Notes under the pieces: model-generated
The model's input: only the letters and a program-made list of their open reading frames with translations
Databases searched by the model: none
Told to the model about the DNA's origin: nothing
In this document: in pieces, positions 9,477 to 34,297 of the stretch
Layout of the letters: the number at the start of each line of letters is the position of its first letter
Position numbering within the stretch: position 1 is the first letter of the stretch
Translations under genes and position numbers: made by a program
Source: a virus
Direction: 5' to 3' (one strand)
IMG/VR virus record: IMGVR_UViG_3300048104_000068
Location: 1-49,247 of that record
DNA: 49,247 nucleotides

Positions 9477-9505
9477 ATATTACTACAAAGAGATAACTAA
9501 GTAAA
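9477..9505 (-). promoter_or_regulatory. Promoter for mazG with operator-like repeat
   Basis: The minus strand shows TTTACT, a 17-base spacer and TAATAT, starting about 18 bases before the expected transcription start. An inverted repeat TAACTA-N6-TAGTTA occupies 9494-9511 and covers the -35 box. The same repeat occurs at 20963-20980 upstream of the primase promoter, so a repressor could act on both. Confidence 0.6.
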
Positions 9506-9517
9506 TAGTTAGGGGCG

Positions 9518-9703
9518 TTATCTACTCTGTAGCTTTTTAAGGTTTAAGAAGAAACCGGAGTCAAACCCGCGCTTCCACTCCTTGTGGAGGAAAGAAGTTT
9601 CCTTATAAGGGCTGTCGAATATACCCCGATAAAACGCCTTCTGTCCCATATCAAACGCCACTTCCAGTGGCTTTTTTTTGGCCTGTCGTTTCTGATGCGA
9701 CAT
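9518..9703 (-). CDS. Ribosome modulation factor-like (Rmf/CrpP-type) small protein
   Basis: 61 residues, basic. Residues 15-50 carry the Rmf pattern: 'AFDMGQKAFYRG', then 'SPYKE', then 'EWKRGFDSG'. Compare E. coli Rmf, where G..A...G, CPYQ and W..GW are conserved. Rmf binds the 30S subunit and makes inactive 100S ribosomes. Short phage and plasmid relatives exist, mostly uncharacterised. The gene sits 12 bases after nrdB with a good AGGAG site and ends before the mazG promoter, so it is made with the reductase genes. A role in redirecting host ribosomes is inferred. Confidence 0.65.
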   Translation of the reverse strand: MSHQKRQAKKKPLEVAFDMGQKAFYRGIFDSPYKETSFLHKEWKRGFDSGFFLNLKKLQSR

Positions 9704-9715
9704 AGGTCAAAACTC

Positions 9716-10693
9716 CTATGATACCGCTCCCCATACCTCTGCCCAATCGCCAGAGAGTGCCCCTTTTGCGTAGTCCACAACTTTGTTTTCAAAGAAGTTA
9801 GTGTGTGTGACACCAAGCATTCCATCTACCCAAGGCAACGGGTTAGTCTTCACTTTGAAGATACCCTTCATGCCCAGCGCGATTAAACGTCTGTCACAAA
9901 TATATCGGATATACTGCTTAACCTCGATAGGGGTCAGGCCCTCCATCTGGTTCACGCCGAACGCTAGGCCGATAAACTTATCCTCTAGCTCAACCATCTT
10001 TTCAGCGGTGGTGTATATCATCTTTTTAGTTTCATCATTCCAAAGGGTACGGTTCTCTTGAACGTAGGTGCGGAACAACTTAATCATGCTCTCAGTGTGC
10101 AGGGTTTCGTCAGCGATAGACCATGCAATGATCTGTCCCATACCCTTCATTTTACCGTGCCTAGCAAAGTTCAGTAGCATCACGAATGAGCTAAACAACT
10201 GCATACCTTCAGTAAATGCACTAAACCCGGCAATCTGTGCGGGTAGGTTCTCGTCCTTCTGTAGCTCTTGGAAGAAGTCGTGCTTCTCTACCATCTCTTC
10301 GTACTCAAGAAACTCGTTGTACGTTGACTCAGGCATACCCAAGGTTTCGATGAGGTGGCTGTAGGCGGCAACATGGATAGCTTCCCGGGCGGCAAACGAC
10401 GATAGCATCATCCTTACTTCAGGCTGTGGGAAGTGCGGTAGGTAGTTGTTCACATACGCGCCCGACACATCTATGTCGCCCTGAGTAAAGAAGCGGAAGA
10501 TCTTCGTAAGGAAGTCCTTCTCTCCATCGTTTAATCTGTGACGCCAGTCCTTGGTGTCTTCCAGCATTGGTACTTCTGTCCACAACCAGTGCATTTGCTC
10601 ACTGGCCTGAAACGCATCATAAGCCCACGGGTAATTAAATGGCTTATAGTAATCTCTTGTGTCCGTTAATTTTGGTTTTCTTTTTGGCATCAT
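9716..10693 (-). CDS. nrdB: Class I ribonucleotide reductase, small subunit
   Basis: 325 residues, full length for phage NrdB. The di-iron ligands are all present: Asp73 (or 75) in TQGDID, Glu104 and His107 in REAIH, Glu162 in FTEGMQ, Glu196 and His199 in DETLH. Tyr111, four residues after His107, matches the radical-bearing tyrosine (E. coli Tyr122). It supplies the radical to NrdA for making dNDPs. The start overlaps the preceding 71-residue gene by 4 bases (ATGA), giving an nrdA - small gene - nrdB operon. Confidence 0.97.
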   Translation of the reverse strand: MMPKRKPKLTDTRDYYKPFNYPWAYDAFQASEQMHWLWTEVPMLEDTKDWRHRLNDGEKDFLTKIFRFFTQGDIDVSGAYVNNYLPHFPQPEVRMMLSSFAAREAIHVAAYSHLIETLGMPESTYNEFLEYEEMVEKHDFFQELQKDENLPAQIAGFSAFTEGMQLFSSFVMLLNFARHGKMKGMGQIIAWSIADETLHTESMIKLFRTYVQENRTLWNDETKKMIYTTAEKMVELEDKFIGLAFGVNQMEGLTPIEVKQYIRYICDRRLIALGMKGIFKVKTNPLPWVDGMLGVTHTNFFENKVVDYAKGALSGDWAEVWGAVS

Positions 10694-10905
10694 TTCCCCC
10701 TCGACTTAAAATCTTTCTGGAAGCGTTCTAGCTTCTCAGCGGCCGCACAGTATTTTTCTACTAGGCCATCCATAGTCTCAATGACGTCCGGGTGTTCCGC
10801 GACGCCTACAGATCGCCCCATATAAATCTCAATATTGGCTTTTGCCGCCAACTTTTCAGCCTCAAATTTCTTAATTAGGGCTGTATAAATAAAATCACTT
10901 TCCAT
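10690..10905 (-). CDS. Small hypothetical protein between nrdA and nrdB
   Basis: 71 residues, helical and charged (MESDFIYTALIKKFEAEK...ERFQKDFKSRGK), with no Cys pair, so it is not a glutaredoxin. It lies 2 bases after nrdA and overlaps nrdB by 4 bases, so it is fully embedded in the reductase operon. Such position suggests an accessory to reductase function or regulation, but that is inference; I do not recognise the family. Confidence 0.7.
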   Translation of the reverse strand: MESDFIYTALIKKFEAEKLAAKANIEIYMGRSVGVAEHPDVIETMDGLVEKYCAAAEKLERFQKDFKSRGK

Positions 10906-10907
10906 GT

Positions 10908-12686
10908 TTATCCCTCACATGCGAGACAGACATCACCATCAGCTACCGCTGTCAGATCAATCTCGTCTTCAATTCTGTTACGTTGAATCTGCATACCGAC
11001 GCGATCAGCTTTACGGAGCTTATCAGAACGGCAGTAGTACAGGCTTTTAAGACCGTTCTTCCATGCTAAGAAATGAGTGGCGTGAAGATACTTCACATTT
11101 ACATCCGGGCGGAAAAATAAGTTTAGACTCTGGCCTTGATCAGTATGTTTCTGTCTGTCAGAGGCTAGATCTATCAGCCAAAGCTGGTCAATCTCATTGG
11201 CTGTTTTGAACACGTCTTTCATATCTTGGGGTATATCTAGGTGCTGAACAGATCCGTCCTGCGCTGTGATACTAGCCCACGTCTTCTGCGTGTTTAGACC
11301 AAGTTCTTCTAGTTTAGTTTCAAGGAACTTGTTTCTTTGTATATACGCACCCGACATTGTATCTTGGCGAAATACGTTGGCTCGGTAAGGTTCAATGCTA
11401 GGGCTAGTGTTACCCATAATAATAGAGCTAGAGGCATTAGGCGCAATAGCCGTCCAGTGACTAAATCTACGCTCGACACCCGCCTGTTGAGCATCGTAGC
11501 ATGGCCCACGGGACTCAAATAACTGTCTGTCGCCTCGCTTACATTCTTTCTCAATGTGACGGTAAATCTCACGATTAGTTACCTTAGTCATGACGCCCTC
11601 TAAAGGCATGTCACGCTTCTGAAAGTAAGCATGTAGACCAAGGGTACCAATACCGATAGATCGTTCTCTAGACGCGGATAGAGCGGCTCTGGAGACGGTC
11701 TTAGGTGCATGTTCTATAAAGTGATCCAGCACGTTATCCAACATCTCCATGATGTCCGGGATAAACTTACGCTCAGACTTCCATTCGTCGTAGTACTCGA
11801 TATTCAGGCTGGACAAACAGCAGACCGCAGTCCGATCCATAGACGTAGGCAAGAAGATCTCAGTACATAGGTTACTACCATTGATTTTCAAACCTTGGCT
11901 CTTTAACCATTCAGGCAGATCATCGTTAGCATTATCTATAAACACCAAGTAGGGCTCACCTGTCTGGGTACGCATCTCTAGCAACTTAATCCATAGTGCC
12001 TTAGCCGATACTGTTTCGACTACTTCACCGTTGTTAGGGCTCACTAGATCCCATGAGTCATCAAAGTCCTCATCACGCATCGACTGCTCAATAAGGTTCA
12101 TGAAGTCATTCGTAATGTTCACGCCGTGGTGTAGGTTAAGTGTACGGAAGTTCTGGTCACCTGTAGGCTTACGCATCTCAACAAACGCCGTAATGTCCGG
12201 GTGGTTTATATCTAGGAATGCCGCATAACTACCGCGACGGGTACGTCCCTGTCGGTAGGCCAGTGAGCTTGCGTCATAGACTTTCAGGTGAGGCATTACT
12301 CCAACTGATTTATCGTCAGAGCCACGGATACCCACATGGATACCAACACCGCCGCCTAGCATAGACAGCCAATTTACTTCGGATAGAGTATCTACTAATC
12401 CTTCTGCGCTATCGTCGAGGTACGACAAGAAGCAACTGATGGGCATACCCCTTTTGCTCCGGCCGTAGCTGAGGATTGGCGTGGACAACGACAGCCAGTG
12501 TTTACTGGTGTATTCGTAGAGGCGCTGGGCGTGATCGGGGTTGGATCCGAATTGCTCACAGACGTAGGCAAATCTTTCTTGTGGGCTACTTTCGTCTTCG
12601 CGCATGTAGCTTTCGCGTAGTCTTGTGAGTCCGAGGTCATCAAATAATCCATCTCTTTCTAAGTCAATATTAACTTTATTTTTCAT
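10908..12686 (-). CDS. nrdA: Class I ribonucleotide reductase, large subunit
   Basis: 592 residues, shorter than E. coli NrdA (about 760) because the N-terminal ATP-cone is missing, so the overall-activity allosteric switch is probably lost. Catalytic residues are visible: Cys85 (PISCFLS) and Cys289/290 for the active-site disulfide, Cys274 with Glu276 (SNLCTEI) for thiyl chemistry, Tyr550-Tyr551 for radical transfer, and Cys587/Cys590 in the C-terminal VCLACEG for re-reduction. It forms dNDPs with NrdB. It overlaps the kinase gene upstream by 11 bases. Confidence 0.97.
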   Translation of the reverse strand: MKNKVNIDLERDGLFDDLGLTRLRESYMREDESSPQERFAYVCEQFGSNPDHAQRLYEYTSKHWLSLSTPILSYGRSKRGMPISCFLSYLDDSAEGLVDTLSEVNWLSMLGGGVGIHVGIRGSDDKSVGVMPHLKVYDASSLAYRQGRTRRGSYAAFLDINHPDITAFVEMRKPTGDQNFRTLNLHHGVNITNDFMNLIEQSMRDEDFDDSWDLVSPNNGEVVETVSAKALWIKLLEMRTQTGEPYLVFIDNANDDLPEWLKSQGLKINGSNLCTEIFLPTSMDRTAVCCLSSLNIEYYDEWKSERKFIPDIMEMLDNVLDHFIEHAPKTVSRAALSASRERSIGIGTLGLHAYFQKRDMPLEGVMTKVTNREIYRHIEKECKRGDRQLFESRGPCYDAQQAGVERRFSHWTAIAPNASSSIIMGNTSPSIEPYRANVFRQDTMSGAYIQRNKFLETKLEELGLNTQKTWASITAQDGSVQHLDIPQDMKDVFKTANEIDQLWLIDLASDRQKHTDQGQSLNLFFRPDVNVKYLHATHFLAWKNGLKSLYYCRSDKLRKADRVGMQIQRNRIEDEIDLTAVADGDVCLACEG

Positions 12687-14882: not shown

Positions 14883-14911
14883 AAAGTACCTCGTTTAAAG
14901 TTAAGGTACGA

Positions 14912-15766
14912 TTACGCTTCGTCGGCTAAATCATCTTCCAAGTCACTAGATATATTATCGAGGGCATCAATAGCATCATCAGATAGCTGGCTGTTACGCA
15001 GAGCTTTCTCATGAGACGCTTGAATCTTTTCGTTCTCGTTCTTCACCATGTCATGCATTACTTTGACTGTCTCAAAGATCTGCTCATCCATTGGAAGCGC
15101 GTTAACAAGGTCGGGGTCAAATTTCATTACCCACCAAATGTTACCGCCAGAGCCTTTAGTCTTAGTGGCACCCACCTTGACTGTGTACTCATGCATCTTA
15201 CGGCCCCGAGGTAATTTCTTCAGGAACTCATCTTCAAACGGGTTAAAGTTAGATCCTTTCAGCATGACAATTACAGGCTGGTTCTCGACAGTTACTGTGT
15301 CACCATCTGCATTCTTACCTTCGTAAGACACTAGGCCACGCACTTGACGGAAGCATTTGATATCACTGTAACGCTTCTGATCTTCCTTAGACATTTCACG
15401 CAATACGTTACTGGTAGGTTTACCACAACGTGTAGTGCCGTTCATGTCCCGGGCTTCTTGGCGTAGCATTGGGATCATCAAGGTTTTGTTCTTAACCTTG
15501 TTCTCTTCAGGGTCGTACTGAATCCATTGGAACAGTTGGCTAAGTGGACGAAAGTTCACCGTTTTGGAGAAAACAGGGTCATCATTTGTACCTTTCACAA
15601 AGAATTGACCACGGGGAAGTGACTGACCTTGGTCGTTCTCTTCTTGGTAGTTAATCTTTAATTCGGGTAGACGATCAGAAGAAGCGTCACCGCTACCACC
15701 ACCCATGCCCATAGCGGCGGCAAGTTCCAATTGTTCACTTTTGCTAATAGTTGCAAGTTCATTCAT
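14912..15766 (-). CDS. Probable single-stranded DNA-binding protein
   Basis: 284 residues. A Gly-rich N-terminus precedes a beta-rich region (about 45-225) without enzymatic motifs, and the protein ends in an acidic tail (DNISSDLEDDLADEA), a feature of SSB-like proteins that use the tail to recruit partners, as in T7 gp2.5. It lies between the polymerase and nuclease genes, where podoviruses place SSB. A Cys pair (TTRCGK and IKCFRQ) is present, purpose unclear. The call rests on the tail and position. It has its own promoter at 15815-15843 and an SD GGAG. Confidence 0.65.
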   Translation of the reverse strand: MNELATISKSEQLELAAAMGMGGGSGDASSDRLPELKINYQEENDQGQSLPRGQFFVKGTNDDPVFSKTVNFRPLSQLFQWIQYDPEENKVKNKTLMIPMLRQEARDMNGTTRCGKPTSNVLREMSKEDQKRYSDIKCFRQVRGLVSYEGKNADGDTVTVENQPVIVMLKGSNFNPFEDEFLKKLPRGRKMHEYTVKVGATKTKGSGGNIWWVMKFDPDLVNALPMDEQIFETVKVMHDMVKNENEKIQASHEKALRNSQLSDDAIDALDNISSDLEDDLADEA

Positions 15767-15814
15767 AAATTTCTCCAGTAGTTACCTTTATTAGGTATTT
15801 TGTTAAGGACTTAC

Positions 15815-15843
15815 AATGTACCTTAGTTAAGGTAACTAGTCAA
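15815..15843 (-). promoter_or_regulatory. Promoter for the SSB - nuclease - nucleotide operon
   Basis: The minus strand shows TTGACT, 17 bases, TACATT. The -35 box overlaps the last codons of the polymerase gene. The spacer contains TAGTTA-N3-TAACTA on the + strand (15824-15838), the half-sites also found at other promoters here. About 42 bases of leader precede the SSB gene. Confidence 0.6.
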
Positions 15844-17962
15844 TATCCAATTCAACTTGTTCCATCCAATTTGGGCCTTGTGTGATCTCGATATCGAGGG
15901 GGAGCGAAAGCTCATAATCATAGCGTTCTTTGACCTCTTCGGCTAAACCGCCCATAGCCCACTTCAGGGCCTCTATCACTTGCGCGTCTTCATCCGGGTG
16001 AACGTCAACGACAATTGAATCATGAACCGTCAAGATCAATCTTGATTTAAAATCTTCCTTGATAAATCTTTGGTGGGCCCGGACACATGACATCACAACT
16101 AAGTCGGCAGTAGCGAACGATTGGCAGGGGTAGTTAACTACGGCAGTAGCATTAGTTATCCTACCGTTTCCTAGCCTCCGAGCGTTAGGGAAGTAGAACT
16201 CACGGCCGCTTGGTATACGAACGAGACCGTCTTTCAGCACACCATCCATTAGCTTACGGTGCCACAGTGCTAGGCCCTTGTAGATGTTGAAGTACTCTTT
16301 GAAGTAGGCTTGGATGTGTGGGGGCTCATTAGCACCCATCCCGCCATACAACGGCGCGAACGTATACGCCTTAGCCGCTTGTCTCATGGTCTTATTAACA
16401 TCATCTACTGAGCATTGATTAATAATGGCGGCGGTCTGTTTGTGTACGTCAAACCCATCAAGTATCTGCTCGATGACAGTAGGACACTGAGATAGTTCCC
16501 CGGCTACTCTAAACTCTAGCCCAGAGAAGTCAGCTTCCATAATCGTGCCGCCATCAAACCTAGAGTGTACGGCTTTCCGTACGGGAAACTTAGAACCCTT
16601 TGGAATGTTCTGGAAGTTTGGGTTAGAAGAGGACAGTCTGCCTGTACGAGTTATGCATTGGTTAAACTGCGCGTGGAGTATTCCATCTGCCCGGGTAGAT
16701 CCTTCGATGTTCTTAATAAACGAGTCTAGGTAAGTAGAGATAGCGTTTAGTCTAGAGGTCTTGGTAAGGAACTCTATTGCCTTTAAGTTGTCCTTTGCCT
16801 CGGCCTGAGCAATCAACTTCTTGATCGTTAACTTATCTGTTTTAAACCCGTTGATGCTGGCGTCGGTAGCTTGGGTAGGCACTAGCTTGAGCCCTGCCAC
16901 TTGCCCTGTCTCAGTTAAAGTATAGCCCCGCCCATCACAATGAGTACACTTGGATAGGTTCTTGTACGGCTCACCATTTACCTTAATCTTCTGTAGCCTA
17001 CCTTTGCCTTCACAAACATCACAGTGATTGGCTATGGTCTTCATTACCCGGCGAGTAGACTTGCGGACTGTGTTAGCAAACTTACTGGCATTCATGCGAG
17101 GGGGTGGTAATGGTTTACCCCGGGCATTGACGCCTATGTTGAATGCGTTCTTATGGTAGTTCCTATCCTTTACTGTGCGCGAATAAACAACGGCAGTCAT
17201 ATCTACACCACTGTTCAGATTGATAGGCGTGTCACCCATCACGTCAGCAACGATGGCATCTAGATCTTTCTCTATCTGTACCTTCTCTGCTTCATACTGT
17301 ATTTTTACTGCACCCAGAGTATCGGTATCTATTGCAATACCGTTGCGCTCTAGCTCCACCAAAAATAGCAACATCTCATTCATTAGAGTAAAGGTTGGTA
17401 GTAGGCCGACGTTCGACTCTTTTAGAAGATCTTTTTGTTGGGCTTGGTAGATCTCCGCAGTAGATAGCACATCGGCATCTGCGTACTCTATGACCGTAGC
17501 CAAGGGCATGGCCTCAAACCCGGTACCTGACTTAAACAAATCATCTACTAGGTCGGACTTCTTACGGGTGACATCCCGGCGTTCGGCTGTAGCTTTGAGT
17601 GATAGCTCTTGACGTTGTCCTCGTGCGAGGATGTACTCACCAATCATCGTGTCGTACACTGTTTTTGGTGTACTGAAACCTGACTCATATAAGTAGGACA
17701 CGTCAAATTTAGCATTATGGCATACAATTAATTCAGCCCGTTTAAGGTCTGCCTTCATCGGCTCACTGCTATCGGCGTTCAGGCCGTGTTGCTCATTATG
17801 ATTAAATATAGCCCGACGCGCTGGGCCTAGTTCTCCGTCTTCAATCATTCTCCAATGAGAAGAGACGATCTTATTCTTTGGATGGTATGGGCTGTTGTCC
17901 TTACTTTTATCCTCACCAAATTGAACCGTTGTTTCTAAGTCCAATACAATTACTACACTCAC
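15836..17962 (-). CDS. polA: DNA polymerase A with inserted DnaJ-type zinc finger
   Basis: 708 residues. 3'-5' exonuclease domain: Asp8/Glu10 (LDLETT), Asn83-Asp87 (HNAKFD), Asp162/Asp164 (EYADAD). Between exonuclease and polymerase, residues 314-346 hold two CxxCxGxG units (CDVCEGKG and CTHCDGRG) as in the DnaJ central zinc finger; this insertion is known from HMO-2011-type phages. Polymerase motif A Asp478 (ADFSGLEFR); motif B Arg527, Lys531, Phe535 (equivalent to E. coli Phe762) and YGG; motif C VHDSIVVD with Asp648, where the usual HDE is HDS. No 5'-nuclease domain. A replicative enzyme; the role of the zinc finger is unknown, perhaps processivity or protein contact. Confidence 0.97.
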   Translation of the reverse strand: MSVVIVLDLETTVQFGEDKSKDNSPYHPKNKIVSSHWRMIEDGELGPARRAIFNHNEQHGLNADSSEPMKADLKRAELIVCHNAKFDVSYLYESGFSTPKTVYDTMIGEYILARGQRQELSLKATAERRDVTRKKSDLVDDLFKSGTGFEAMPLATVIEYADADVLSTAEIYQAQQKDLLKESNVGLLPTFTLMNEMLLFLVELERNGIAIDTDTLGAVKIQYEAEKVQIEKDLDAIVADVMGDTPINLNSGVDMTAVVYSRTVKDRNYHKNAFNIGVNARGKPLPPPRMNASKFANTVRKSTRRVMKTIANHCDVCEGKGRLQKIKVNGEPYKNLSKCTHCDGRGYTLTETGQVAGLKLVPTQATDASINGFKTDKLTIKKLIAQAEAKDNLKAIEFLTKTSRLNAISTYLDSFIKNIEGSTRADGILHAQFNQCITRTGRLSSSNPNFQNIPKGSKFPVRKAVHSRFDGGTIMEADFSGLEFRVAGELSQCPTVIEQILDGFDVHKQTAAIINQCSVDDVNKTMRQAAKAYTFAPLYGGMGANEPPHIQAYFKEYFNIYKGLALWHRKLMDGVLKDGLVRIPSGREFYFPNARRLGNGRITNATAVVNYPCQSFATADLVVMSCVRAHQRFIKEDFKSRLILTVHDSIVVDVHPDEDAQVIEALKWAMGGLAEEVKERYDYELSLPLDIEITQGPNWMEQVELDID

Positions 17963-17963
17963 A

Positions 17964-18476: not shown

Positions 18477-18478
18477 AT

Positions 18479-19702: not shown

Positions 19703-19703
19703 A

Positions 19704-19743
19704 GCTATCGCATAGTTAAGTTATAGTTGAGCTACACGATAGC
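19704..19743 (-). promoter_or_regulatory. Inverted repeat and -10-like box before the helicase gene
   Basis: GCTATCG (19704-19710) and CGATAGC (19737-19743) form a 7-base inverted repeat around AT-rich DNA holding TAGTTA at 19713-19718. The minus strand has TATAAC at 19720-19725, like two other -10 boxes in the window, but no convincing -35. Because a terminator lies just upstream, a promoter is needed here for the helicase operon. Weak individual evidence. Confidence 0.4.
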
Positions 19744-19755
19744 ATGGAGAAGAAA

Positions 19756-19808: not shown

Positions 19809-20012
19809 TTAACTAGAACGTAATTTCATCTTTTTTATGTCGGGCCTGTTATCGCCTCGACGCTCTTTGATATCTACTTCTGAATGAACTACTCTGGGGT
19901 TTCCCTTGACCAGTTCTCGCACAGCATTCTCCAGAGCTTCTTGCTCTACCGCCGCTTGCTTGTACCCATCAGGTAGATCGTAATCTATTACGACAATTCC
20001 TCTGCACTTCAT
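19809..20012 (-). CDS. Small hypothetical protein linked to primase
   Basis: 67 residues (MKCRGIVVIDYDLPDGYKQA...KKMKLRSS), alpha/beta pattern with an initial beta strand then a long helix and 'VHSEVDIKERRGDNRPD'. Proteins of this look accompany primase/helicase genes in marine podoviruses, but the function is not known to me. It is 32 bases after primase and directly before the terminator, so it shares the primase mRNA. Confidence 0.65.
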   Translation of the reverse strand: MKCRGIVVIDYDLPDGYKQAAVEQEALENAVRELVKGNPRVVHSEVDIKERRGDNRPDIKKMKLRSS

Positions 20013-20917: not shown

Positions 20918-20946
20918 TTTTTAACATGGTTTTAAGCATCCGTCAA
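20918..20946 (-). promoter_or_regulatory. Primase promoter with upstream palindromes
   Basis: The minus strand has TTGACG, 17 bases, TAAAAA. Immediately upstream lie a perfect 14-base palindrome TAAACTATAGTTTA (20951-20964) and TAACTA-N6-TAGTTA (20963-20980). The 16 bases 20961-20976 recur at 24144-24159. These look like operator sites for a DNA-binding regulator controlling replication. Confidence 0.6.
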
Positions 20947-20950
20947 CAAC

Positions 20951-20980
20951 TAAACTATAGTTTAACTATTACATTAGTTA
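20951..20980. promoter_or_regulatory. Operator-like palindromes between primase promoter and attP
   Basis: Two overlapping dyads: TAAACTATAGTTTA (perfect, 14 bases) and TAACTA-N6-TAGTTA (18 bases). The second is identical in arm and spacing to 9494-9511. They lie 5 bases upstream of the primase -35 box and about 55 bases from the attP core, so they could bind either a repressor or the integrase/excisionase. Confidence 0.55.
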
Positions 20981-21033
20981 TGAGCTTAACCATATTAACC
21001 CCTGTAACCCATTGATTTTATTAAGTTTCCACC

Positions 21034-21074
21034 TAACCTGAAGGTCGTAGGTTCAAATCCTACTCCCGCAACCA
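21034..21074 (+). other. attP: Putative phage attachment site (attP core), 3' half of tRNA-fMet
   Basis: Forty-one bases match the 3' half of bacterial initiator tRNA-fMet: TAACCTGAAGGTC (end of anticodon loop, anticodon stem and variable loop), a T-arm GTAGG-TTCAAAT-CCTAC and acceptor TCCCGCA followed by ACCA. The 5' half is absent, so it cannot be a functional tRNA. Phages that integrate into tRNA genes carry exactly such 3' fragments near their integrase; the integrase gene here is about 400 bases away. Integration would restore a full tRNA-fMet in the host. Confidence 0.88.
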
Positions 21075-21077
21075 AAG

Positions 21078-21323: not shown

Positions 21324-21484
21324 AAATACCCCCTCTTTTTCATCTCCATGATCTTACACGCCGCACAAAAGTAGTGGGTTGTATTTGACTTGGAGTCTGT
21401 TAGCCATCGTGTGCGCTCTACGACTACCGCCGGAGCTTCTTTGCACACGTCACAGTTACGCCTTTCCTTTTTCTTTAATGTCAT
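21320..21484 (-). CDS. Small zinc-ribbon protein B after integrase
   Basis: 54 residues, basic (MTLKKKERRNCDVCKEAP...FCAACKIMEMKKRGYL). CDVC and CAAC pairs about 30 residues apart suggest one zinc site. The ATG overlaps the integrase stop (ATGA) and its own stop overlaps the next gene, so the three are co-translated. It is too basic and short for an enzyme; nucleic-acid binding is plausible. Family not recognised. Confidence 0.65.
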   Translation of the reverse strand: MTLKKKERRNCDVCKEAPAVVVERTRWLTDSKSNTTHYFCAACKIMEMKKRGYL

Positions 21485-22566
21485 GATGCGAACCTCTTGT
21501 TGATTGCTGACGTTGCCAGCTTCATTGTTGGTCTGACATAGGTCGCTAGAATCTCACGCGACTGATGTCCCGTTACTGCTCTCAGTTCATCTTCAGTACA
21601 CCCAGCCTCAGCCATCTCAGTTGCACCTGTTCGGCGGAGATCACGAAGCTGTAGATGTGTGGGTATGCCCGATTGTTTCCTAACCCGGGCGAAGTATTTG
21701 ACCAGTAGATCTTTGCTGTATGGTTTGCCTGTAGTCTCACAGATAGCGATACAGCCTATTCTTTCTAAATCTAAGGGATCGTATTGGTGGTGTTCTTTTA
21801 ATCGCTCTATCAATCTAGGAGAAGCGGCTACACCCATTATGGTCTTGGTCTTCTCTTGGATGTAGGCAAACTGTTCATCATGATAATTAGCCCACGTTAA
21901 CTGTCGCATGTCCCCGGGCCTTGCACATAGGTCATAAGCCAGCAAAGTGATCGTACCAATAGACGGGTAACCCATTTTATCGGCTGTCTCGATCAGTTTG
22001 GATACTTGCTCAGGCTCCCAGAGTACCTTTCGGGTAGCCAAGCCGGGTATTTTCATGTTGCTGAACGGATTTGCGGGCACTTTGTCGTGTCTAAAGCCTA
22101 CGTTGTACACTTTTCGCAGTACTTTCACTACATGAGACGCCCTGTGGTCACTATATTCCTGTTGAATCATGGTAAATAGCTTATCTGCCTGAGTTGCAGT
22201 GATGTTTTTAGCTTTTACCTGACCAAATGATAACTTTGCCGCGTCTAGTTGCATCTCCGTGGCCGTTCGTAGCTGTAAATCATAGAAAGTTTTACTGTTA
22301 TCAGCTAATTTTAACCACTCCTGAGTAGTTTTATAGAAATTTATGAGCCCTTCAACGCTTTCATCATCTACTTTGATCGTTCCTTCGTTCTTTCTGCGGT
22401 GCAAACTGAATTCGAGTGCCACTTGCTGGCAATACTTTACTGCATCCCGTTTGTTTGGGAACCGTTGGTACCCTAAGTTAAGTGCATCCCGTACACCTCG
22501 GGACGGATTAAATGCATAAAACACTGATCCGTCTGCTTTTTTCCTTTCTTCTAAATATTTTGTCAT
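21481..22566 (-). CDS. int: Tyrosine integrase/recombinase
   Basis: 361 residues from the ATG at 22566, which has AAGGG 7 bases upstream and lies about 28 bases after the predicted transcription start; a reading starting at 22629 would begin inside the -35 box. The N-terminal part resembles arm-binding plus SAM-like core-binding domains. Catalytic residues: Arg216 (CARPGDMRQL), a beta-hairpin Lys (QEKTKT), Arg311 within LRDLRRT (where the usual His is Arg308), His334 (TGHQS) and nucleophile Tyr343 (ATYVRP). It would integrate the phage at host tRNA-fMet using the attP core at 21034-21074. Confidence 0.95.
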   Translation of the reverse strand: MTKYLEERKKADGSVFYAFNPSRGVRDALNLGYQRFPNKRDAVKYCQQVALEFSLHRRKNEGTIKVDDESVEGLINFYKTTQEWLKLADNSKTFYDLQLRTATEMQLDAAKLSFGQVKAKNITATQADKLFTMIQQEYSDHRASHVVKVLRKVYNVGFRHDKVPANPFSNMKIPGLATRKVLWEPEQVSKLIETADKMGYPSIGTITLLAYDLCARPGDMRQLTWANYHDEQFAYIQEKTKTIMGVAASPRLIERLKEHHQYDPLDLERIGCIAICETTGKPYSKDLLVKYFARVRKQSGIPTHLQLRDLRRTGATEMAEAGCTEDELRAVTGHQSREILATYVRPTMKLATSAINKRFAS

Positions 22567-22600
22567 CCTTATACCCTTATTAGTTATGAGTTCGAGTAAT

Positions 22601-22629
22601 ACGATAACTAAAAAAAACTGGCGCGTCAA
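22601..22629 (-). promoter_or_regulatory. Integrase promoter
   Basis: Minus strand TTGACG, 17 bases, TATCGT. The -35 region TTGACGCGCCAGT is repeated at the promoter of the gene at 22811-23068. TAACTA (22605-22610) overlaps the -10/spacer, and TAGTTA within ATTAGTTATGAG (22579-22590) lies near the transcription start; the latter 12 bases also occur at 20973-20984 beside attP. Confidence 0.65.
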
Positions 22630-22810: not shown

Positions 22811-23068
22811 TTAGTCTTCGACTAATTTTAGATCGGGTATAGTACAGTCGGGGCATACTGTTACCACTGCGTCGGGGTTTTCTCCCGCACGACTTGCTTT
22901 GATTACTACTTTGGTTTGATTTAACTCAAGAAAATCTGCTCGATGTCCTTGTTCAGCTATTTCTATAGCATCATATAGATTAGCAATTCCTAGCCATGCC
23001 TCATCTATTGTCATTTCATACCCTAGCGGAGGTGTCTCTTTGTTTAATACTCGCTTTCGATTGGGCAT
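22811..23068 (-). CDS. Hypothetical protein upstream of integrase
   Basis: 85 residues from the ATG at 23068, which has AAAGGAG 6 bases upstream; an ATG 15 bases earlier would overlap that site. The protein has a basic start (MPNRKRVLNKE), a helical middle (DEAWLGIANLYDAIEIAEQG) and a C-terminal CPDC followed by acidic residues. No helix-turn-helix is obvious. It has its own promoter with the same TTGACGCGCCAGT block as integrase. The position suggests a lysogeny or regulatory gene, but I do not recognise the family. Confidence 0.6.
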   Translation of the reverse strand: MPNRKRVLNKETPPLGYEMTIDEAWLGIANLYDAIEIAEQGHRADFLELNQTKVVIKASRAGENPDAVVTVCPDCTIPDLKLVED

Positions 23069-23095
23069 CCGTTCTCCTTTCATAAGAGTCTCAAC

Positions 23096-23123
23096 AAGAT
23101 AATAAAAAAGACTGGCGCGTCAA
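23096..23123 (-). promoter_or_regulatory. Promoter for the gene at 22811-23068
   Basis: Minus strand TTGACG, 16 bases, TATCTT. The first 13 bases, TTGACGCGCCAGT, and the following T-run are the same as in the integrase promoter 490 bases away, suggesting that both respond to the same factor. Confidence 0.6.
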
Positions 23124-23242: not shown

Positions 23243-23270
23243 TTGCTAACTGGGGGCGCTTGTATATAAT
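23243..23270 (+). promoter_or_regulatory. Promoter of the cargo cassette
   Basis: TTGCTA, 16 bases, TATAAT (perfect -10). The leader ends with CACTACAAAAGGAAAC before the ATG; the same ACTACAAAAGG block precedes the DUF932 gene. Confidence 0.7.
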
Positions 23271-23327
23271 CGGGGTATGGGTTCGCTGTGGTGGCGGCCC
23301 TTTAACACTACAAAAGGAAACTAAAAA

Positions 23328-24044: not shown

Positions 24045-24148
24045 AAAAAGAAAAATACCCGCTCGGCACTTTGCGGCCGCTTTATACTGTAATAGGCTTT
24101 TGCGTTTTTTGGTGGTGGGTTTTGTCATGGGCCGCCGGTACGCTTTAA
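24041..24148 (+). CDS. 35-residue Trp-rich membrane peptide
   Basis: A GTG start overlaps the GP88 stop (GTGA), giving VKKEKYPLGTLRP followed by a hydrophobic span with FWWWVLSW and ending AAGTL. A basic N-terminus then one transmembrane helix suggests an inner-membrane peptide with its N-terminus inside. Length and composition resemble small phage or toxin-antitoxin membrane peptides. Translational coupling and the fit to an otherwise tight gap are the evidence for its reality. Confidence 0.5.
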   Translation: MKKEKYPLGTLRPLYTVIGFCVFWWWVLSWAAGTL

Positions 24149-24168
24149 CTATTACATTAATAACGCCC

Positions 24169-24196
24169 TTTACTCGGGCCGAGTTAAGTGTATAAT
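24169..24196 (+). promoter_or_regulatory. Promoter of the DUF932 gene
   Basis: TTTACT, 16 bases, TATAAT. Nine bases upstream of the -35, at 24144-24159, is TTTAACTATTACATTA, identical to 20961-20976 beside the primase promoter, carrying the TAACTA half-site. Confidence 0.7.
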
Positions 24197-24249
24197 CAAA
24201 CAATCGGCCGGGGTGGTCTCGGCCGTTTAACTACAAAAGGTAAAATATT

Positions 24250-25352: not shown

Positions 25353-25380
25353 CCCGGCCCGATAAAGTAACCGAAACCAG

Positions 25381-25406
25381 CCCCGGCATTGTCCGGGGTT
25401 TTTTTT
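25381..25406 (+). terminator. Rho-independent terminator of the cargo cassette
   Basis: CCCCGG, loop CATTGT, CCGGGG, then eight T. It closes the GP88 - DUF932 unit and isolates it from the late block. Confidence 0.92.
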
Positions 25407-25943
25407 GCCTATCATTTACCCGGGCCAATATAAGGCCGATACAGCGACGCCAGCCCGAGGCCATAGGGTAGCACCACCCGGCAACCGTTCGGGGCTTAGG
25501 CGGTACTGTGGGCGGATAACATGCACCGGGCCGCCCCGCCCTCGGCCGTGGTGCGTTCGTCAATAGGCCGCGCCGGTCAATCGGGCCGGGTATAGCCAGC
25601 GCCTAGCGTTACGTTATGAGCCCGGGCCGTGCAATCGCCAGCAATGCCGGGGCTTTACTCGGGCCAGTGGTCGCGGCTGTGGTCAAACCAGCGAGAACCT
25701 AGCAACGGCGGGGCCTAGCGGGGGGGGCGACTGCCACCGGGGGGGGTACCCGTTACCGTATACAACTACGACCGAATTTGGAAAAATAGGTATTGTCAAC
25801 AAGATCGAGACCCCTACGGACTCCATTTGTAAACATAGTAGGTTTTCGTGTCGATATTTGGGGGTTTTGTGTACACGTTCTGTCAACACGCAATAATATG
25901 CGCCTATTAGTGTTATAATTATGCATTTAATTGCGCCAAACTA
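25407..25943. other. Gene desert between cargo cassette and late block
   Basis: No convincing gene on either strand; open frames here are short and reflect GC-rich composition. 25407-25750 is GC-rich with many GGCC/CCGG/CCCGGG sites and ends in two runs of eight G (25720-25727 and 25739-25746) next to GGCGGGG, a potential G-quadruplex. From about 25750 the DNA becomes AT-rich with TTGTCAACA/CTGTCAACA segments and then the late promoter. It could hold a replication origin, a terminal or packaging signal, or be the remnant of the cassette's donor. Confidence 0.5.
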
Positions 25944-25972
25944 TTGACTTAACTAAGGTAATTTAATATTAT
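25944..25972 (+). promoter_or_regulatory. Late-block promoter, near-consensus sigma70 type
   Basis: TTGACT, 17 bases, TATTAT. The spacer contains TAACTA followed by AGGTAA; the related ACTAAGGTA block is in the SSB promoter. Expected start near 25979, about 45 bases before the first late gene. Confidence 0.8.
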
Positions 25973-26023
25973 TGGGTATGACTTTAGCAATTGTTGGAGT
26001 ATTTTCCTTAAATGGACTAAATT

Positions 26024-26344
26024 ATGAGCTTACCTAGCGATACTGCGACGCTCGAATTACCGTTACTAGTCGAAAACGACCTAGAAGTGGACAACGACGG
26101 ACGTATGTTCGTAGTTAGTTACATATTCCCTGACGAGAGTGATGAATCTGTCGAGATACGAGTAGATTTTGAGCAGATCATCGATAATTTGATCGATTTC
26201 TACCGTGAAGACCAAGGTGCGGCCGGATATAACCAGCTTTACCTTATTGCACATGAACTTGACCGTCATTCTCACAATCTTCGTGATATTGCTGGCCTGA
26301 TGGAAGGCAAGTTACACAACGAAGATCTATTTGATGAATTCTAA
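26024..26344 (+). CDS. Hypothetical acidic protein, first gene of the rightward block
   Basis: 106 residues, acidic throughout (about a quarter Asp/Glu), with a beta-rich first half ('GRMFVVSYIFPDESDESVEIRVDFE') and helical second half. No motif recognised. As the first gene after the strongest promoter it may be an early-expressed host-takeover or regulatory protein, or a DNA mimic given its charge; all of this is inference. Its end overlaps the next gene. Confidence 0.65.
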   Translation: MSLPSDTATLELPLLVENDLEVDNDGRMFVVSYIFPDESDESVEIRVDFEQIIDNLIDFYREDQGAAGYNQLYLIAHELDRHSHNLRDIAGLMEGKLHNEDLFDEF

Positions 26345-26886: not shown

Positions 26887-26987
26887 TATATGTACCGCCC
26901 GGCGAACGCCTGAACATTTTAGCATGAATTTGCTCATCCGTCAATACTCCGCCCCTATTAATTACCTTAACTACGTTATTTCAGGTG

Positions 26988-27016
26988 TTGCAATTAAATC
27001 GTAGTAGTGTTATAAC
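26988..27016 (+). promoter_or_regulatory. Second late-block promoter
   Basis: TTGCAA, 17 bases, TATAAC. TAACTA lies at 26968-26973 just upstream. The start would be near 27023, leaving only about 10 bases of leader before the ATG at 27033. The -10 TATAAC is shared with the capsid promoter. Confidence 0.65.
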
Positions 27017-27032
27017 AAATACCAGACTCAAC

Positions 27033-27311
27033 ATGTCTCTCCCCAAAAACTCAATCAACTTAATTTACATACGAGCCGCGATAGAAGCGGCTACTGGCGT
27101 CCGTTTAACTTTAAAGGATGTCAGGAGGTACCTTTTAGAAGAGGGCCTGATCACGCCGAAACAAGCGCGAGACGAGGCTACTATTTTTAGAGGCTACAAA
27201 GAATTTTATGAGCAGGACTACACCGATTACCGGGACGATAGCCTCTCGACTAAAGAACTAAATTTTGATGATGAGGCCAATCGGCGCAAGATAAAGTTTG
27301 GGGACGAATAA
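27033..27311 (+). CDS. Hypothetical small protein, possible DNA-binding
   Basis: 92 residues from ATG 27033; a frame extending upstream to 26985 would include the promoter, so the shorter start is chosen. 'INLIYIRAAIEAATGVRLTLKDVRRYLLEEGLITPKQA' looks like a short winged or helical domain ('L.DVRRYL.EEGLI') as in small regulators; the C-terminus is acidic. No strong Shine-Dalgarno: it may be read from a very short leader. Function inferred only loosely. Confidence 0.6.
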   Translation: MSLPKNSINLIYIRAAIEAATGVRLTLKDVRRYLLEEGLITPKQARDEATIFRGYKEFYEQDYTDYRDDSLSTKELNFDDEANRRKIKFGDE

Positions 27312-27329
27312 TTACTTAGGGAGCTAAAA

Positions 27330-27644: not shown

Positions 27645-27646
27645 TC

Positions 27647-30515: not shown

Positions 30516-30519
30516 ATAA

Positions 30520-32637
30520 ATGGCAATTGTAGACCGACCAGAAGATATAAATTTAGAAGAAGCCGCAATCGGATTGGAAGATGGTACTCCCGAGGACAAT
30601 GCGTCTCTGGGCGGATTAATTGGATGGATCGAAGGAAGGTATAACCGATCAAACGATGCGAGGCAGTCGGATGAAACAAGATGGCTTACTTCTTATAGGA
30701 ATTACCGTGGCCTATATGGCCCAGACGTTCAGTTCACGGAGCAGGAAAAGAGTCAGGCGTTTATCAAGATCACTAAGACCAAAGTTCTTGCGGCCTATGC
30801 TCAAATTGTCGATGTACTTTTTGCAGGGAGTAAGTTTCCTATTGGCATTGAGCCTAGTTACAAGCCTCTGGGCGTTAGTGGCCCTATGCACTTTGATCCA
30901 AAGGAAGTTACTGAGGATAAATTAAACGAGCTTACTGGGGGTAGCGGATCTAAGAACCCCACTATTGCACGACCAGAATTATTAAAACGCTCCGGGCCAT
31001 ACCAAGACCAACTTGGCCGCGTAGAAGATAAATTACGAGAAGGCCCCGGCAAAACACCTACGGCTCTAACTTTTGAGCCAGCAAAAGAAGCCTCTAGAAA
31101 AATGGAAAAGACTATCCATGATCAGCTAGAGGAGTCCGAAGCAAACAAACATTTACGTTCCGTTGCTTTTGAGATGTCGCTGTTTGGTACAGGCATTTTA
31201 AAAGGCCCATTCGCGTTACAGAAAGAGTATCCGAATTGGAATGACGAAGGCGTTTATGACCCAGTTTTTAGGACTATTCCTAAAGTCGAAGCTGTGAGTA
31301 TTTGGAATTTTTACCCAGATCCAGACGCACGGAATATGACAGAAGCGGAGTACATTATTGAACGTCACCGCTTAAATCGCTCTCAACTGAGAGCCCTTAA
31401 AAAACGTCCTTTCTTTAGGCAAGAGGCAATTGATGAGGCGATTGATTTCGGCCCGAATTACACTCCCCACTATTGGGAGGACTCCTTAGAAGATAGTGAT
31501 ATGTCTTCGTCTATTGAACGCTATGAAGTACTTGAGTACTGGGGTGTTGTAGACGCTGAGATAGCCGAAGAGGCTGAACTAGATTTACCAGATGAAGTGG
31601 CAGACCAAGACGAAGTGCAGATCAACGCATGGGTTTGTAACGGCCAAGTCATCCGTCTAGTAATTAATCCATTTACTCCAACCCGTATTCCTTACCACGC
31701 AGTACCCTACGAGCTTAATCCATATAGCTTCTTTGGTATTGGTCTGGCAGAGAACATGGAAGATACACAAGAGATCATGAATGGTTTCATGCGTCTTGCT
31801 GTAGATAACGCCGCTTTGTCATCTAACCTCTTAATTGAGATTGATGAAACAAACCTAGTACCGGGACAAGACATGTCAGTTTATCCGGGCAAGGTGTTTA
31901 GGCGTCAGGCGGGTGCGCCGGGACAAGCCATCTTTGGTACGAAGTTCCCGAACGTAACCGGTGAATGTATACAAGTTTTTGATAAGGCACGACAGTTAGC
32001 GGATGAAGCTACTGGTATGCCTTCCTTTGCTCACGGTAGTACAGGCGTTATGGGTGTTGGTAGAACAGCATCTGGAATGTCTATGCTTATGGGCGCGGCG
32101 GCACAGAACATTAAGGCCGTTGTACGCAATGTTGATGACTACTTATTGGCTCCTCTCGGCCGATCTTTATTCAGTTTCAACATGCAGTTTAATTTCGATA
32201 AATCTATTAGAGGGGATCTCGATGTCGTAGCCAAAGGCACAGAAAGCCTAATGCGAAACGAGGTACGTTCTCAACGCCTGTTGCAGTTTATGCAGATGAC
32301 AGGAAACCCTAGTATGGCTCCATTCGTTAAGTATGATTACATACTACGAGAGCTTGCCGCGAGTATGGATCTGGATGAGGACAAGGTTCTTAACGATCCA
32401 AGAGAAGCGGCGATCCAAGCTGAGATGATGGCGGCGGTAGCGGCGTTGATGCCACAGCAACCACCCCAACAACAGCAACAAGGGGCACCTAGTCCCGAAG
32501 ACCCAACCGGTAATGGTGGCGGGAACATAGCTCCCGGTAATGCACCAGAACCCGGCGCTCCCGGATTTACGGGAGAAGGCGGAGGAGCGAACGGTGGAAC
32601 TCCACCCCCAGCACCACCTGAAGGTCAGCCACAGTAA
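30520..32637 (+). CDS. Portal protein
   Basis: 705 residues. Podovirus portal features: 'QAFIKITKTKVLAAYAQIVDVLF' early, the wing region with 'VSIWNFYPDPDARNM', 'IPYHAVPYELNPYSFFGIGLAENMEDTQEIMNGFMR' and 'ATGMPSFAHG' in the clip/crown, ending in a disordered Gln/Pro/Gly-rich tail (QQPPQQQQQGAPSPEDP). It forms the dodecameric DNA channel and binds TerL and the tail adaptor. It is directly between terL and the small genes preceding the scaffold, as usual. Confidence 0.93.
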   Translation: MAIVDRPEDINLEEAAIGLEDGTPEDNASLGGLIGWIEGRYNRSNDARQSDETRWLTSYRNYRGLYGPDVQFTEQEKSQAFIKITKTKVLAAYAQIVDVLFAGSKFPIGIEPSYKPLGVSGPMHFDPKEVTEDKLNELTGGSGSKNPTIARPELLKRSGPYQDQLGRVEDKLREGPGKTPTALTFEPAKEASRKMEKTIHDQLEESEANKHLRSVAFEMSLFGTGILKGPFALQKEYPNWNDEGVYDPVFRTIPKVEAVSIWNFYPDPDARNMTEAEYIIERHRLNRSQLRALKKRPFFRQEAIDEAIDFGPNYTPHYWEDSLEDSDMSSSIERYEVLEYWGVVDAEIAEEAELDLPDEVADQDEVQINAWVCNGQVIRLVINPFTPTRIPYHAVPYELNPYSFFGIGLAENMEDTQEIMNGFMRLAVDNAALSSNLLIEIDETNLVPGQDMSVYPGKVFRRQAGAPGQAIFGTKFPNVTGECIQVFDKARQLADEATGMPSFAHGSTGVMGVGRTASGMSMLMGAAAQNIKAVVRNVDDYLLAPLGRSLFSFNMQFNFDKSIRGDLDVVAKGTESLMRNEVRSQRLLQFMQMTGNPSMAPFVKYDYILRELAASMDLDEDKVLNDPREAAIQAEMMAAVAALMPQQPPQQQQQGAPSPEDPTGNGGGNIAPGNAPEPGAPGFTGEGGGANGGTPPPAPPEGQPQ

Positions 32638-32852
32638 TGGAAAAAGTCTTAGCGAAGAAAATATTACCTCTAGTCAATGACGTAGAGAAGTACCCGTTAT
32701 TACAAGACTATGTAGATACTCGTATCGAGACGATGCGTAATTTTTTAGAGAATACAAAAGAACACGAAAAGATACTGGAAGTACAGGGCGCAATTGCAGA
32801 GTTGCGAAGGTTCCAGACACTGCGTGATCAAGCTCTGGAGGGAGCCAAATAA
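32637..32852 (+). CDS. Small coiled-coil protein after the portal
   Basis: 71 residues, nearly all helix with heptads (LPLVNDVEKYPLLQDYVDTRIETM... LRRFQTLRDQALE). ATG overlaps the portal stop (TAATGG). A gene of this size follows the portal in many marine podoviruses; role unknown, perhaps scaffold or portal assembly. Confidence 0.7.
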   Translation: MEKVLAKKILPLVNDVEKYPLLQDYVDTRIETMRNFLENTKEHEKILEVQGAIAELRRFQTLRDQALEGAK

Positions 32853-33406
32853 TGCATAATTACGAAGAAGATATGATGATGGGCGGATGCGGAGATCCAA
32901 TGTGCCCCGAGTGTGGCGGTATGATGGTAGGCATGGATGATGTGTCAGGAAACCCAATTCCTCCGGGGTCTAACGAGATGAATGTCCGTGATGATATTCC
33001 AGCAGTTTTAAGCGACGGTGAGTACGTCGTTCCAGCGGACGTTGTTCGCTATCATGGTTTAAAGACTTTTATGTCGCTACGCGACGAAGCTAAATTTGGC
33101 CTAATGGCTATGTACGCCGAGGGTCAGATCCAAGAAATCGAAGAAGAAGAACAAGAGATGATAACTTGTCCTGAGTGTGATGGCGAAGGCTGTGAACACT
33201 GTGACGGGCTAGGGTACCACTACGCTGATGAAGAAGATTACGAAACAGAAGAAGAAGAGTATGAGACCGAAGAAGGTAACGTAATCGAAGAAGCAAAATC
33301 AGAAATAGAAGAAGAAACAATGGAAGTCGAAGAGGATGAAGAAGACTCTTCAGACGGCAAAAATACTTATCGTCCCAGCGTAAAGATCGCTTTGATGAAA
33401 AGGTAA
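32852..33406 (+). CDS. Acidic protein with DnaJ-like CxxCxGxG motifs
   Basis: 184 residues. A Met/Cys-rich start (CGDPMCPECGG), then 'NVRDDIPAVLSDGEYVVPADVVRYHGLKTF' (a stretch seen in small podovirus head proteins), then at 106-121 CPECDGEGCEHCDGLG: two consecutive CxxCxGxG-like units as in DnaJ, and an acidic tail of mostly Glu/Asp. The DNA polymerase of this phage carries the same kind of zinc motif. Likely a head assembly factor by position; zinc binding is inferred from the Cys pattern. Confidence 0.65.
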   Translation: MHNYEEDMMMGGCGDPMCPECGGMMVGMDDVSGNPIPPGSNEMNVRDDIPAVLSDGEYVVPADVVRYHGLKTFMSLRDEAKFGLMAMYAEGQIQEIEEEEQEMITCPECDGEGCEHCDGLGYHYADEEDYETEEEEYETEEGNVIEEAKSEIEEETMEVEEDEEDSSDGKNTYRPSVKIALMKR

Positions 33407-33409
33407 TTT

Positions 33410-33450
33410 GCGGCACGGGCTACCCGCATAAACCACTAGCTTCGGCTAGT
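33410..33450 (+). promoter_or_regulatory. Two hairpins before the scaffold gene
   Basis: CGGG-CTA-CCCG (33416-33426) and a perfect ACTAGC-TTCG-GCTAGT hairpin (33435-33450) with a stable UUCG tetraloop. There is no U-run, so this is not an ordinary terminator; an RNA-processing or stability element controlling scaffold and capsid dosage is plausible. Confidence 0.55.
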
Positions 33451-33479
33451 CTACTTTAACGGCCCCCAACGGAGACTAT

Positions 33480-34262
33480 ATGGCTAAGTACAGAAACGCC
33501 TATCGGGATGAAACCGATCAGGCGACAGAAGAGGTGCAAGCGGCACCTACAAAAAGCGCACCAACACCACCCCCAGCAAATGCTGATGAAGAAAGTTTTA
33601 AGAAACGCTACGGTGACCTTCGCCGTCATATGCAACAGCAAATGGCGCAACGTGACCAAGAGATTAGTCAGATGCAAGCGCAACTTAGTGATGCGACACG
33701 CGGACAGATTAAATTCCCTAAGTCTGAAGAAGAAGTCGAGGCGTGGTCTGCTAAGTACCCGGATGTTGCTAAGATTATCGACACAATCGCTCAGAAGCGA
33801 ATTAAAGAAGTCTATGACGAAGCAAAGGTAGAAATTCGAGATATTAAGAAGCAACAAGATAGTGTCAAAGCTGAAAAAGCTATGATGGAGCTACATAAGT
33901 TGCATCCTGATTTTGATAAGATCCGGGCCCAGAAAGGATTTCACGATTGGGTAGCTGAACAACCAAAGTATATTCAGGATTCCCTCTATCGTAACAACCA
34001 AGATGCCAAGGCGGCGGCCAGAGCAATTGATCTCTACAAGTCCGACAAAGGTATCCGAAGAGTAAGAACTAAGAACTCCAGTGCCGCCGCTCAGGCCATT
34101 GGAAGAAGTGGAGTAGCCGCGCCAACTAGCGGTAAGTCCATGTTCACAGAAAGTCAGGTACAGAACATGAGTTCGGCTGAGTATGAAAAAAACGAAGCTA
34201 AAATCATGGAATCAATCAGTAAAGGGCTGTTTGAATACGATGTAACTGGTGGAGCGCGTTAA
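33480..34262 (+). CDS. Scaffolding protein
   Basis: 260 residues, highly charged, mostly helical. Pro/Ala-rich N-terminal segment, then a long coiled-coil with Gln/Lys ('MQQQMAQRDQEISQMQAQLSD', 'KIIDTIAQKRIKEVYDEAK'), and a basic C-terminal part ending 'SISKGLFEYDVTGGAR'. This matches podovirus scaffold proteins that shape the procapsid and leave it; position just before the capsid gene agrees. SD GGAG 8 bases upstream. Confidence 0.88.
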   Translation: MAKYRNAYRDETDQATEEVQAAPTKSAPTPPPANADEESFKKRYGDLRRHMQQQMAQRDQEISQMQAQLSDATRGQIKFPKSEEEVEAWSAKYPDVAKIIDTIAQKRIKEVYDEAKVEIRDIKKQQDSVKAEKAMMELHKLHPDFDKIRAQKGFHDWVAEQPKYIQDSLYRNNQDAKAAARAIDLYKSDKGIRRVRTKNSSAAAQAIGRSGVAAPTSGKSMFTESQVQNMSSAEYEKNEAKIMESISKGLFEYDVTGGAR

Positions 34263-34267
34263 ACCAC

Positions 34268-34297
34268 TTGCTAATACCTTAGTTAGTGTGGTATAAC
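34268..34297 (+). promoter_or_regulatory. Capsid gene promoter
   Basis: TTGCTA, 18 bases, TATAAC, with TAGTTA (34280-34285) inside the spacer. Same -10 as the promoter at 26988-27016. It gives the capsid gene its own transcript, ended by the terminator at 35630-35665. Confidence 0.6.

Follow-up and report, generated by a model that had tools for sequence, protein, structure and literature searches.

A palindromic element recurring at promoters of an integrase-carrying HMO-2011-type podovirus, a candidate operator for a phage-encoded regulator

Phages of the HMO-2011 type, some of them temperate, belong to the most abundant viruses known from the sea. In phiC31, a temperate phage of a different type, the repressor encoded by the c gene binds conserved inverted repeats (CIRs), one palindromic operator being found at many intergenic promoters. 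Cluster A mycobacteriophages (L5, Bxb1, Trixie) have many dispersed operators, or stoperators, for a single repressor, Rep (PMC6550527, PMC9283540), with motifs that are similar, not identical, between related phages and that diverge along with the phage (PMC6550527); these stoperators are 13-bp asymmetric sequences that follow the direction of transcription and mostly lie at a distance from promoters, and the repressor gene is known (PMC6550527, PMC9283540). The theme of the present work is a 16-bp palindromic element, TACNTTA-RY-TAANGTA, with the hexamer TAACTA/TAGTTA at its centre, which recurs at promoters of the IMG/VR virus record IMGVR_UViG_3300048104_000068 (49,247 nt; the whole of this stretch was analysed and is called the window below).

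The arrangement resembles that of phiC31 in kind, the same palindromic site standing at many intergenic promoters (a likeness of layout), but no c-like repressor gene was recognised in the window and host phylum and phage type differ. Dispersed sites and motif drift between relatives are shared with the cluster A phages, from which the window differs in having sites that are palindromic and at promoters, and no recognised repressor gene. Lambda-like CI systems differ in turn, since no HTH_3 match is present among the families shown for the scanned window proteins, in a record that, by comparison with CRP-3, may lack about 4-6 kb of the late/tail region. Closer to hand, CRP-3, CRP-235 and CRP-212 belong to the same HMO-2011-type group, carry an integrase and have their own versions of the operator, whereas CRP-1, CRP-603 and HTVC033P are group members without its signal. 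No repressor is mentioned for these phages in PMC9038755 or PMC6918029, and the word "promoter" does not occur in the main text of PMC9038755.

By its sequence, the window phage is a marine HMO-2011-type podovirus of Roseobacter type carrying an integrase. This follows from its polymerase (15836-17962), which belongs to family A, carries a DnaJ-type insert (PF00476, PF01612 and weak PF00684 in a Pfam scan) and is 61% identical to that of the Roseobacter phage CRP-3, 59% to CRP-235, 55% to CRP-212 and 40% to HMO-2011; the inserted partial DnaJ CxxCxGxG domain, the gene order of the group and its syntenic genes are all present. The integrase gene lies at 21481-22566. The 43 bp at 21034-21076 (+), which do not belong to the operator set, match loci on plasmids of the Roseobacter group with 100% identity and read as a host tRNA gene's 3' end, thus marking the core of the phage attachment site (attP). 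Three GGTTA-type repeats spaced by about 10-11 bp at 20985-21013, between this core and the primase operator described below, are candidate integrase arm-type sites. The integration site of CRP-3 is a tRNA-Met gene, at its 3' end (PMC6918029), and lysogeny therefore occurs in this group.

Enrichment, palindromic unit and conservation

Over the whole window TAACTA/TAGTTA occurs 50 times against 39.3 expected, a weak excess that 3 of 100 shuffles reach and that is wholly noncoding: the 2.9 kb of noncoding DNA holds 16 copies versus 4.1 expected (0 of 2000 shuffles), and coding DNA 33 versus 35. Among 1320 canonical hexamers it ranks first for noncoding over-representation. A first-pass annotation, made from the sequence alone, had already treated the coding copies as chance occurrences, and the background level in coding DNA agrees. 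All nine promoters at which it had placed the hexamer (9477, 15815, 19704, 20918, 22601, 24169, 25944, 26988 and 34268) carry it, at the positions given. The 18-base dyad TAACTA-N6-TAGTTA described there is exact at 9494-9511 and 20963-20980 (2 found, 0.00 expected), and the reversed arms reported at 15824-15838 were confirmed; they share bases with TACCTTAGTTAAGGTA (15819-15834), an inverted repeat of 7-2-7 layout without a mismatch.

The dyad is nevertheless not the repeating unit. An unconstrained motif search of 42 upstream regions, with no symmetry imposed and the best run taken from a random seed, returned the symmetric pattern C[CA]TTA[AG][CT]TAA[GT]G, and a palindromic search returned TACNTTA-RY-TAANGTA. 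Taken with the scores in the window, the learned palindrome makes the hexamer the centre of the operator and the dyads at 9494 and 20963 two such centres 12 bp apart, so that the earlier proposal of a repeated palindromic element stands while its definition of the unit is replaced. When each of eight genes was left out in turn, with expectation maximisation from random seeds and p taken as the fraction of 1000 shuffles over relatives, the motif learned elsewhere scored above shuffles at the omitted promoter for mazG (p=0.001), the ssb-like gene (0.004), primase (0.000), integrase (0.022, the weakest of the eight), DUF932 (0.002), 26024 (0.000), 27033 (0.000) and the major capsid protein (0.009). 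GC content was limited in all eight trainings, two of which had otherwise reached a GC-rich optimum. Judged from the window sequence by itself, significance at single promoters is confined to 26024 and 27033 (again p=0.000 each) and capsid. Under a matrix partly trained on the window, sites scoring 10 bits or higher number 8 in the 2.9 kb of noncoding DNA versus 5 in 46.3 kb of coding DNA.

The signal extends to related phages. For the eight genes, 80 related contigs retrieved by polymerase were supplemented with isolate genomes and long contigs, and upstream regions were counted as non-redundant when their mutual identity was below 88%; the hexamer is present in 74 of 125 such orthologous regions versus 21.8 expected, a count that, the regions being homologous, does not amount to 125 independent events. 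In nine genomes of the subgroup, 63 promoter-like sites contain 21 hexamers between -35 and -10, compared with 1.8 in spacer shuffles (0 of 500), and hexamer density is 13.8/kb in promoter spacers versus 2.4/kb in the remaining noncoding DNA; six outgroup HMO-2011-type genomes have 2 hexamers in 32 promoter-like sites, with 0.9 expected. The noncoding excess is 2.0-4.4-fold across the window phage and the relatives nearest to it and 2.3-3.6-fold in CRP-3, CRP-235 and CRP-212, and is absent from CRP-1, HTVC033P and CRP-603 (0.7-1.1-fold). CRP-345, HMO-2011 and CRP-207 are intermediate (2.0-2.8-fold), and the subgroup boundary is thus not sharp. Applied to genomes outside the training set, the matrix finds 7 sites in CRP-3 versus 1.1 by shuffling, 9 versus 1.5 in CRP-235, and 0-2 versus 0.5-1.1 in the six outgroup genomes.

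Sites and promoters along the window

Eight of the nine promoters called in the first pass coincide with -35/-10 pairs spaced by 16-18 bp, and their box patterns are conserved in relatives. The ninth, at 19704, lacks an ordinary pair and is more likely an extended -10 promoter (TGCTATCGT type) just past a terminator, with the hexamer in its leader; the operator-like site there, in the helicase leader (TCGCATAGTTAAGTTA, 19708-19723), scores 10.6 bits, and its hexamer is kept in close relatives.

At five of the eight the site overlaps the -35 box, the spacer or the -10 box. The best operator in the window, the inverted repeat at 15819-15834 (17.2 bits, the window maximum), lies inside the spacer of the promoter at 15815-15843 (-; TTGACT-17-TACATT, with TTGAC and a TAnnnT pattern in most relatives), which serves the 14912-15766 operon running from the ssb-like gene to nrd genes. 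At the mazG promoter (9477-9505, -; -35 TTTACT, 17-bp spacer, -10 TAATAT; box pattern kept in L029, L015, L025 and L022), a pair of TA-RY-TA centres 12 bp apart (TAACTAAGTAAATAGTTAGGGGC, 9494-9516) spans the -35 box, as had been claimed for the first dyad. The operator TGACTTAACTAAGGTA (25945-25960, 14.1 bits) overlaps the -35 box of the gene 26024 promoter (25944-25972, +; TTGACT-17-TATTAT), and TACCTTAGTTAGTGTG (34275-34290, 11.9 bits) occupies the spacer of the capsid promoter (34268-34297, +; TTGCTA-18-TATAAC), which is kept in G001 and G003. An operator-like site at 22600-22615 lies over the -10 box of the integrase promoter (22601-22629, -; TTGACG-17-TATCGT).

At the other three the site is upstream. 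That of DUF932 (24146-24168, TAACTATTACATTAATAA..., best 16-mer 24153-24168, with ACATTA/ACCTTA kept in relatives) is centred at about -42 from a promoter at 24169-24196 (+; TTTACT-16-TATAAT). The site of gene 27033 (late operon) is TACCTTAACTACGTTA (26963-26978, 14.5 bits), centred at about -52 from the promoter at 26988-27016 (+; TTGCAA-17-TATAAC) and lying between it and a leftward promoter. The primase promoter (20918-20946, -; TTGACG-17-TAAAAA), kept in relatives down to 64-67% identity, has its operator or operators at 20963-20985 (TAACTATTACATTAGTTA plus flank; best 16-mer 20970-20985, centre about -66), the core CATAACTA[AG]TGT being kept in most relatives over the same range. Given these three, the element is not simply an operator laid over every promoter.

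Several neighbouring features deserve mention. The leftward promoter just referred to (26915-26943, -; TTGACGGATGAGC...TGCTAAAAT) is conserved, closely resembles the primase promoter in sequence and points into the end of gene 26331 in antisense direction; many relatives, G002 among them, have equivalents, and a small antisense RNA is possible. A near-identical 21-bp repeat (ACTGGCGCGTCAA type) at 22609-22629 and 23103-23123 gives the integrase and gene 22811 the same upstream -35 region. Ahead of gene 26024 lies a 671-bp noncoding stretch (25353-26023) without an Rfam match, at the place where the annotations of CRP-3, CRP-235, CRP-212 and CRP-738 also leave gaps of about 750-860 bp. Further hexamers occur in 5' leaders at 9471, 15779, 22581, 24228 and 34346, four of the five no more than about 30 bases from a start codon, and are less well conserved; those at 9471, 15779, 22581 and 24228 are TAACTA near ribosome-binding sites, a leader CTAACT(T)GGAG recurs in CRP-212 and in CRP-3, and such leader copies may be a separate translational element. 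The leaders of the cargo genes GP88 (23260-23327) and DUF932 (24200-24249) are alike, GC-rich and hairpin-like followed by TTTAAC...ACTACAAAAGG, and kept in relatives, and could possibly share translational control. Elsewhere, 8862-9140 (-) encodes a homologue of CRP-3 gp19 (44% identity), and the overlapping + strand open reading frame 8851-9021 is probably not the gene.

Clade-specific arms and the nature of the regulator

In sister phages the TA-NN-TA centre of the element is kept and the arms differ, even on one host strain. A palindromic search in the clade at 67% polymerase identity gave GACACTA-RY-TAGTGTC, with a log-likelihood of 112 versus about 24 in shuffles. CRP-3, whose version of the site is GCACTTAACTAAGTGC, has the arms GCACTTA-RY-TAAGTGC at 4 noncoding and 0 coding positions, and CRP-212 has GACACCTA-RY-TAAGTGTC at 4 noncoding and 3 coding positions, with 0.2 expected in each case; both patterns were read off the genome in which they were counted, so these numbers are descriptive. 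A constant centre with changing arms is what would be expected of a regulator family with diverging specificity. The Roseobacter strain FZCC0040 is the recorded host of CRP-3, CRP-212, CRP-235 and CRP-207 alike, and CRP-207 shows no motif; differing arms, or none, on the same strain favour a protein encoded by the phage.

We consider it somewhat probable (roughly 0.6) that a single dimeric regulator, encoded by the phage and working chiefly as a repressor, has its dispersed operators at the sites marked by the hexamers. Such a dimer would bind TACNTTA-RY-TAANGTA in or over the -35/-10 region at five promoters and just upstream at three. The promoters resemble ordinary host-polymerase promoters, for which occlusion is the simplest action, and the sites overlapping -35, spacer or -10 suggest repression of this kind; early, cargo, integrase and late promoters may thus be repressed together, by a protein that would serve lysogeny or timing, and at DUF932, 27033 and primase the bound protein may activate, loop, modulate or exert dual control. 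The regulon would co-ordinate replication, integration and late genes through one phage protein. The first-pass annotation had likewise proposed one phage regulator for early, cargo, integrase and late genes: a single conserved cis-element, enriched by placement, is indeed found at replication, nucleotide, cargo, integrase and late promoters, though its upstream position at primase, DUF932 and 27033 departs from a uniform operator.

Several observations weigh against this reading. The three upstream sites fit an activator as well, and no recognisable DNA-binding regulator domain was found among the scanned phage proteins (Pfam, PHROGs). A palindrome search on the window alone, with the GC-rich cargo masked, did no better than shuffles, and unmasked it was swamped by that cargo, so that the power of the analysis derives from relatives, which lack independence. 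When the ssb-like promoter was omitted, the search converged on a dyad with a different centre; CRP-212, CRP-738 and G002 are scarcely or not enriched under the window's own matrix; and some leader hexamers may be unrelated to the operator.

The main rival, which we regard as unlikely, is a phage-encoded activator, early or middle/late, recruiting host RNA polymerase to imperfect -10 boxes. Centres at about -42, -52 and -66 are classic activator distances, the -10 boxes of the ssb-like (TACATT) and integrase (TATCGT) promoters are weak, and the late capsid promoter belongs to the set; yet the sites at the ssb-like, capsid, mazG, 26024 and integrase promoters overlap -35, spacer or -10 with a normal spacer of 16-18 bp, where a bound dimer normally blocks polymerase. 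A host transcription factor, coupling phage expression to host physiology, would explain why no phage regulator gene is recognised, but is very improbable given the different arms or missing motif in the same-strain phages CRP-3, CRP-235, CRP-212 and CRP-207. Of the two host motifs compared, CtrA-type TTAA-N7-TTAA sites are not enriched (3 versus 1.81 expected, one of the three at a listed promoter), and NrdR boxes number 2 versus 5.46 expected (3 mismatches), neither at a promoter.

The dyad at 20963-20980 lies 54 bp from the attP core, with GGTTA-like repeats in between, and might be an integrase arm-type or excisionase site unrelated to the rest; the conservation of its core beside the primase promoter down to 64-67% identity, and its fit to a motif learned from other promoters, make this improbable. 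Least probable of all, the enrichment could follow from the make-up of promoters and leaders (TTGACTA, TATAACTA, A/T-rich stretches ahead of ribosome sites), with no dedicated binding protein. Several copies, here and in CRP-212 and CRP-3, do lie in leaders beside ribosome-binding sites, and some overlap -10 boxes; against this, the palindrome predicts left-out promoters, promoter spacers hold 21 hexamers compared with 1.8 in shuffles, and outgroup phages with the same kind of promoter lack the signal.

Candidate regulator genes and significance

Pfam and PHROGs scans agree with the first-pass statement that no repressor gene is recognisable, and the gene may sit in the part of the tail region that the record may lack. 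Of the three candidates then named, 22811 is weakened, being acidic and having recognisable homologues in the closest relatives only, and 26024 and 27033 remain candidates, neither with a significant DNA-binding match. Ahead of the integrase, most of these phages encode a small protein (L047:1814-2026, CRP-3 gp01, CRP-212 gp01 and 22811-23083 in the window), and by eye the copies resemble one another (..LGNALLDAAE..).

Only the motif-bearing subgroup has genes 19809, 26024, 27033, 2029 and some small late genes. The 26024 protein (26024-26344, +; 106 residues, acidic, isoelectric point 4.1) and the 19809 protein (19809-20012, -; 67 residues, basic, isoelectric point 8.9, strongly conserved) are candidates by co-occurrence only. 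The C-terminus of the latter is nearly invariant, which argues against changing specificity, and its structure model, one helix between extended segments, has no fold match in the PDB. The 27033 protein (27033-27311, +; 92 residues) has a predicted three-helix N-terminus and a weak match to HTH_33, a winged-helix family (E=0.055); its structure model, with three N-terminal helices and a mean pLDDT of 67, has no PDB fold match below E=0.7, none being better than E=0.77. Profile searches with 27033 and 19809 against PDB sequences gave no matches. A strict co-occurrence of 27033 with hexamer enrichment is no more than suggestive: the 2.0-2.8-fold excess in CRP-345, HMO-2011 and CRP-207 comes with no clear homologue of 27033, and in G002 and CRP-738 the gene is present and the excess small. 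A MerR-like role for 27033 is unsupported, as its helix region is nearly invariant while the arms change and the spacers are 16-18 bp rather than 19-20. CRP-3 gp56 and CRP-212 gp55, helix-turn-helix-like by eye, and the winged-helix-like CRP-3 gp59 were also considered and have no counterpart in the window.

Tentatively, the regulator could be a small protein of an undescribed DNA-binding family (19809, 26024 or 27033 by co-occurrence, or another) that controls lysogeny and the lytic programme across the subgroup, with the arms corresponding to immunity types. Whatever its identity, the operator consensus with its clade-specific arms offers a bait for finding the regulator and makes lysogeny and superinfection immunity in these phages directly testable, and the arm types could sort uncultured relatives into immunity types by sequence alone.

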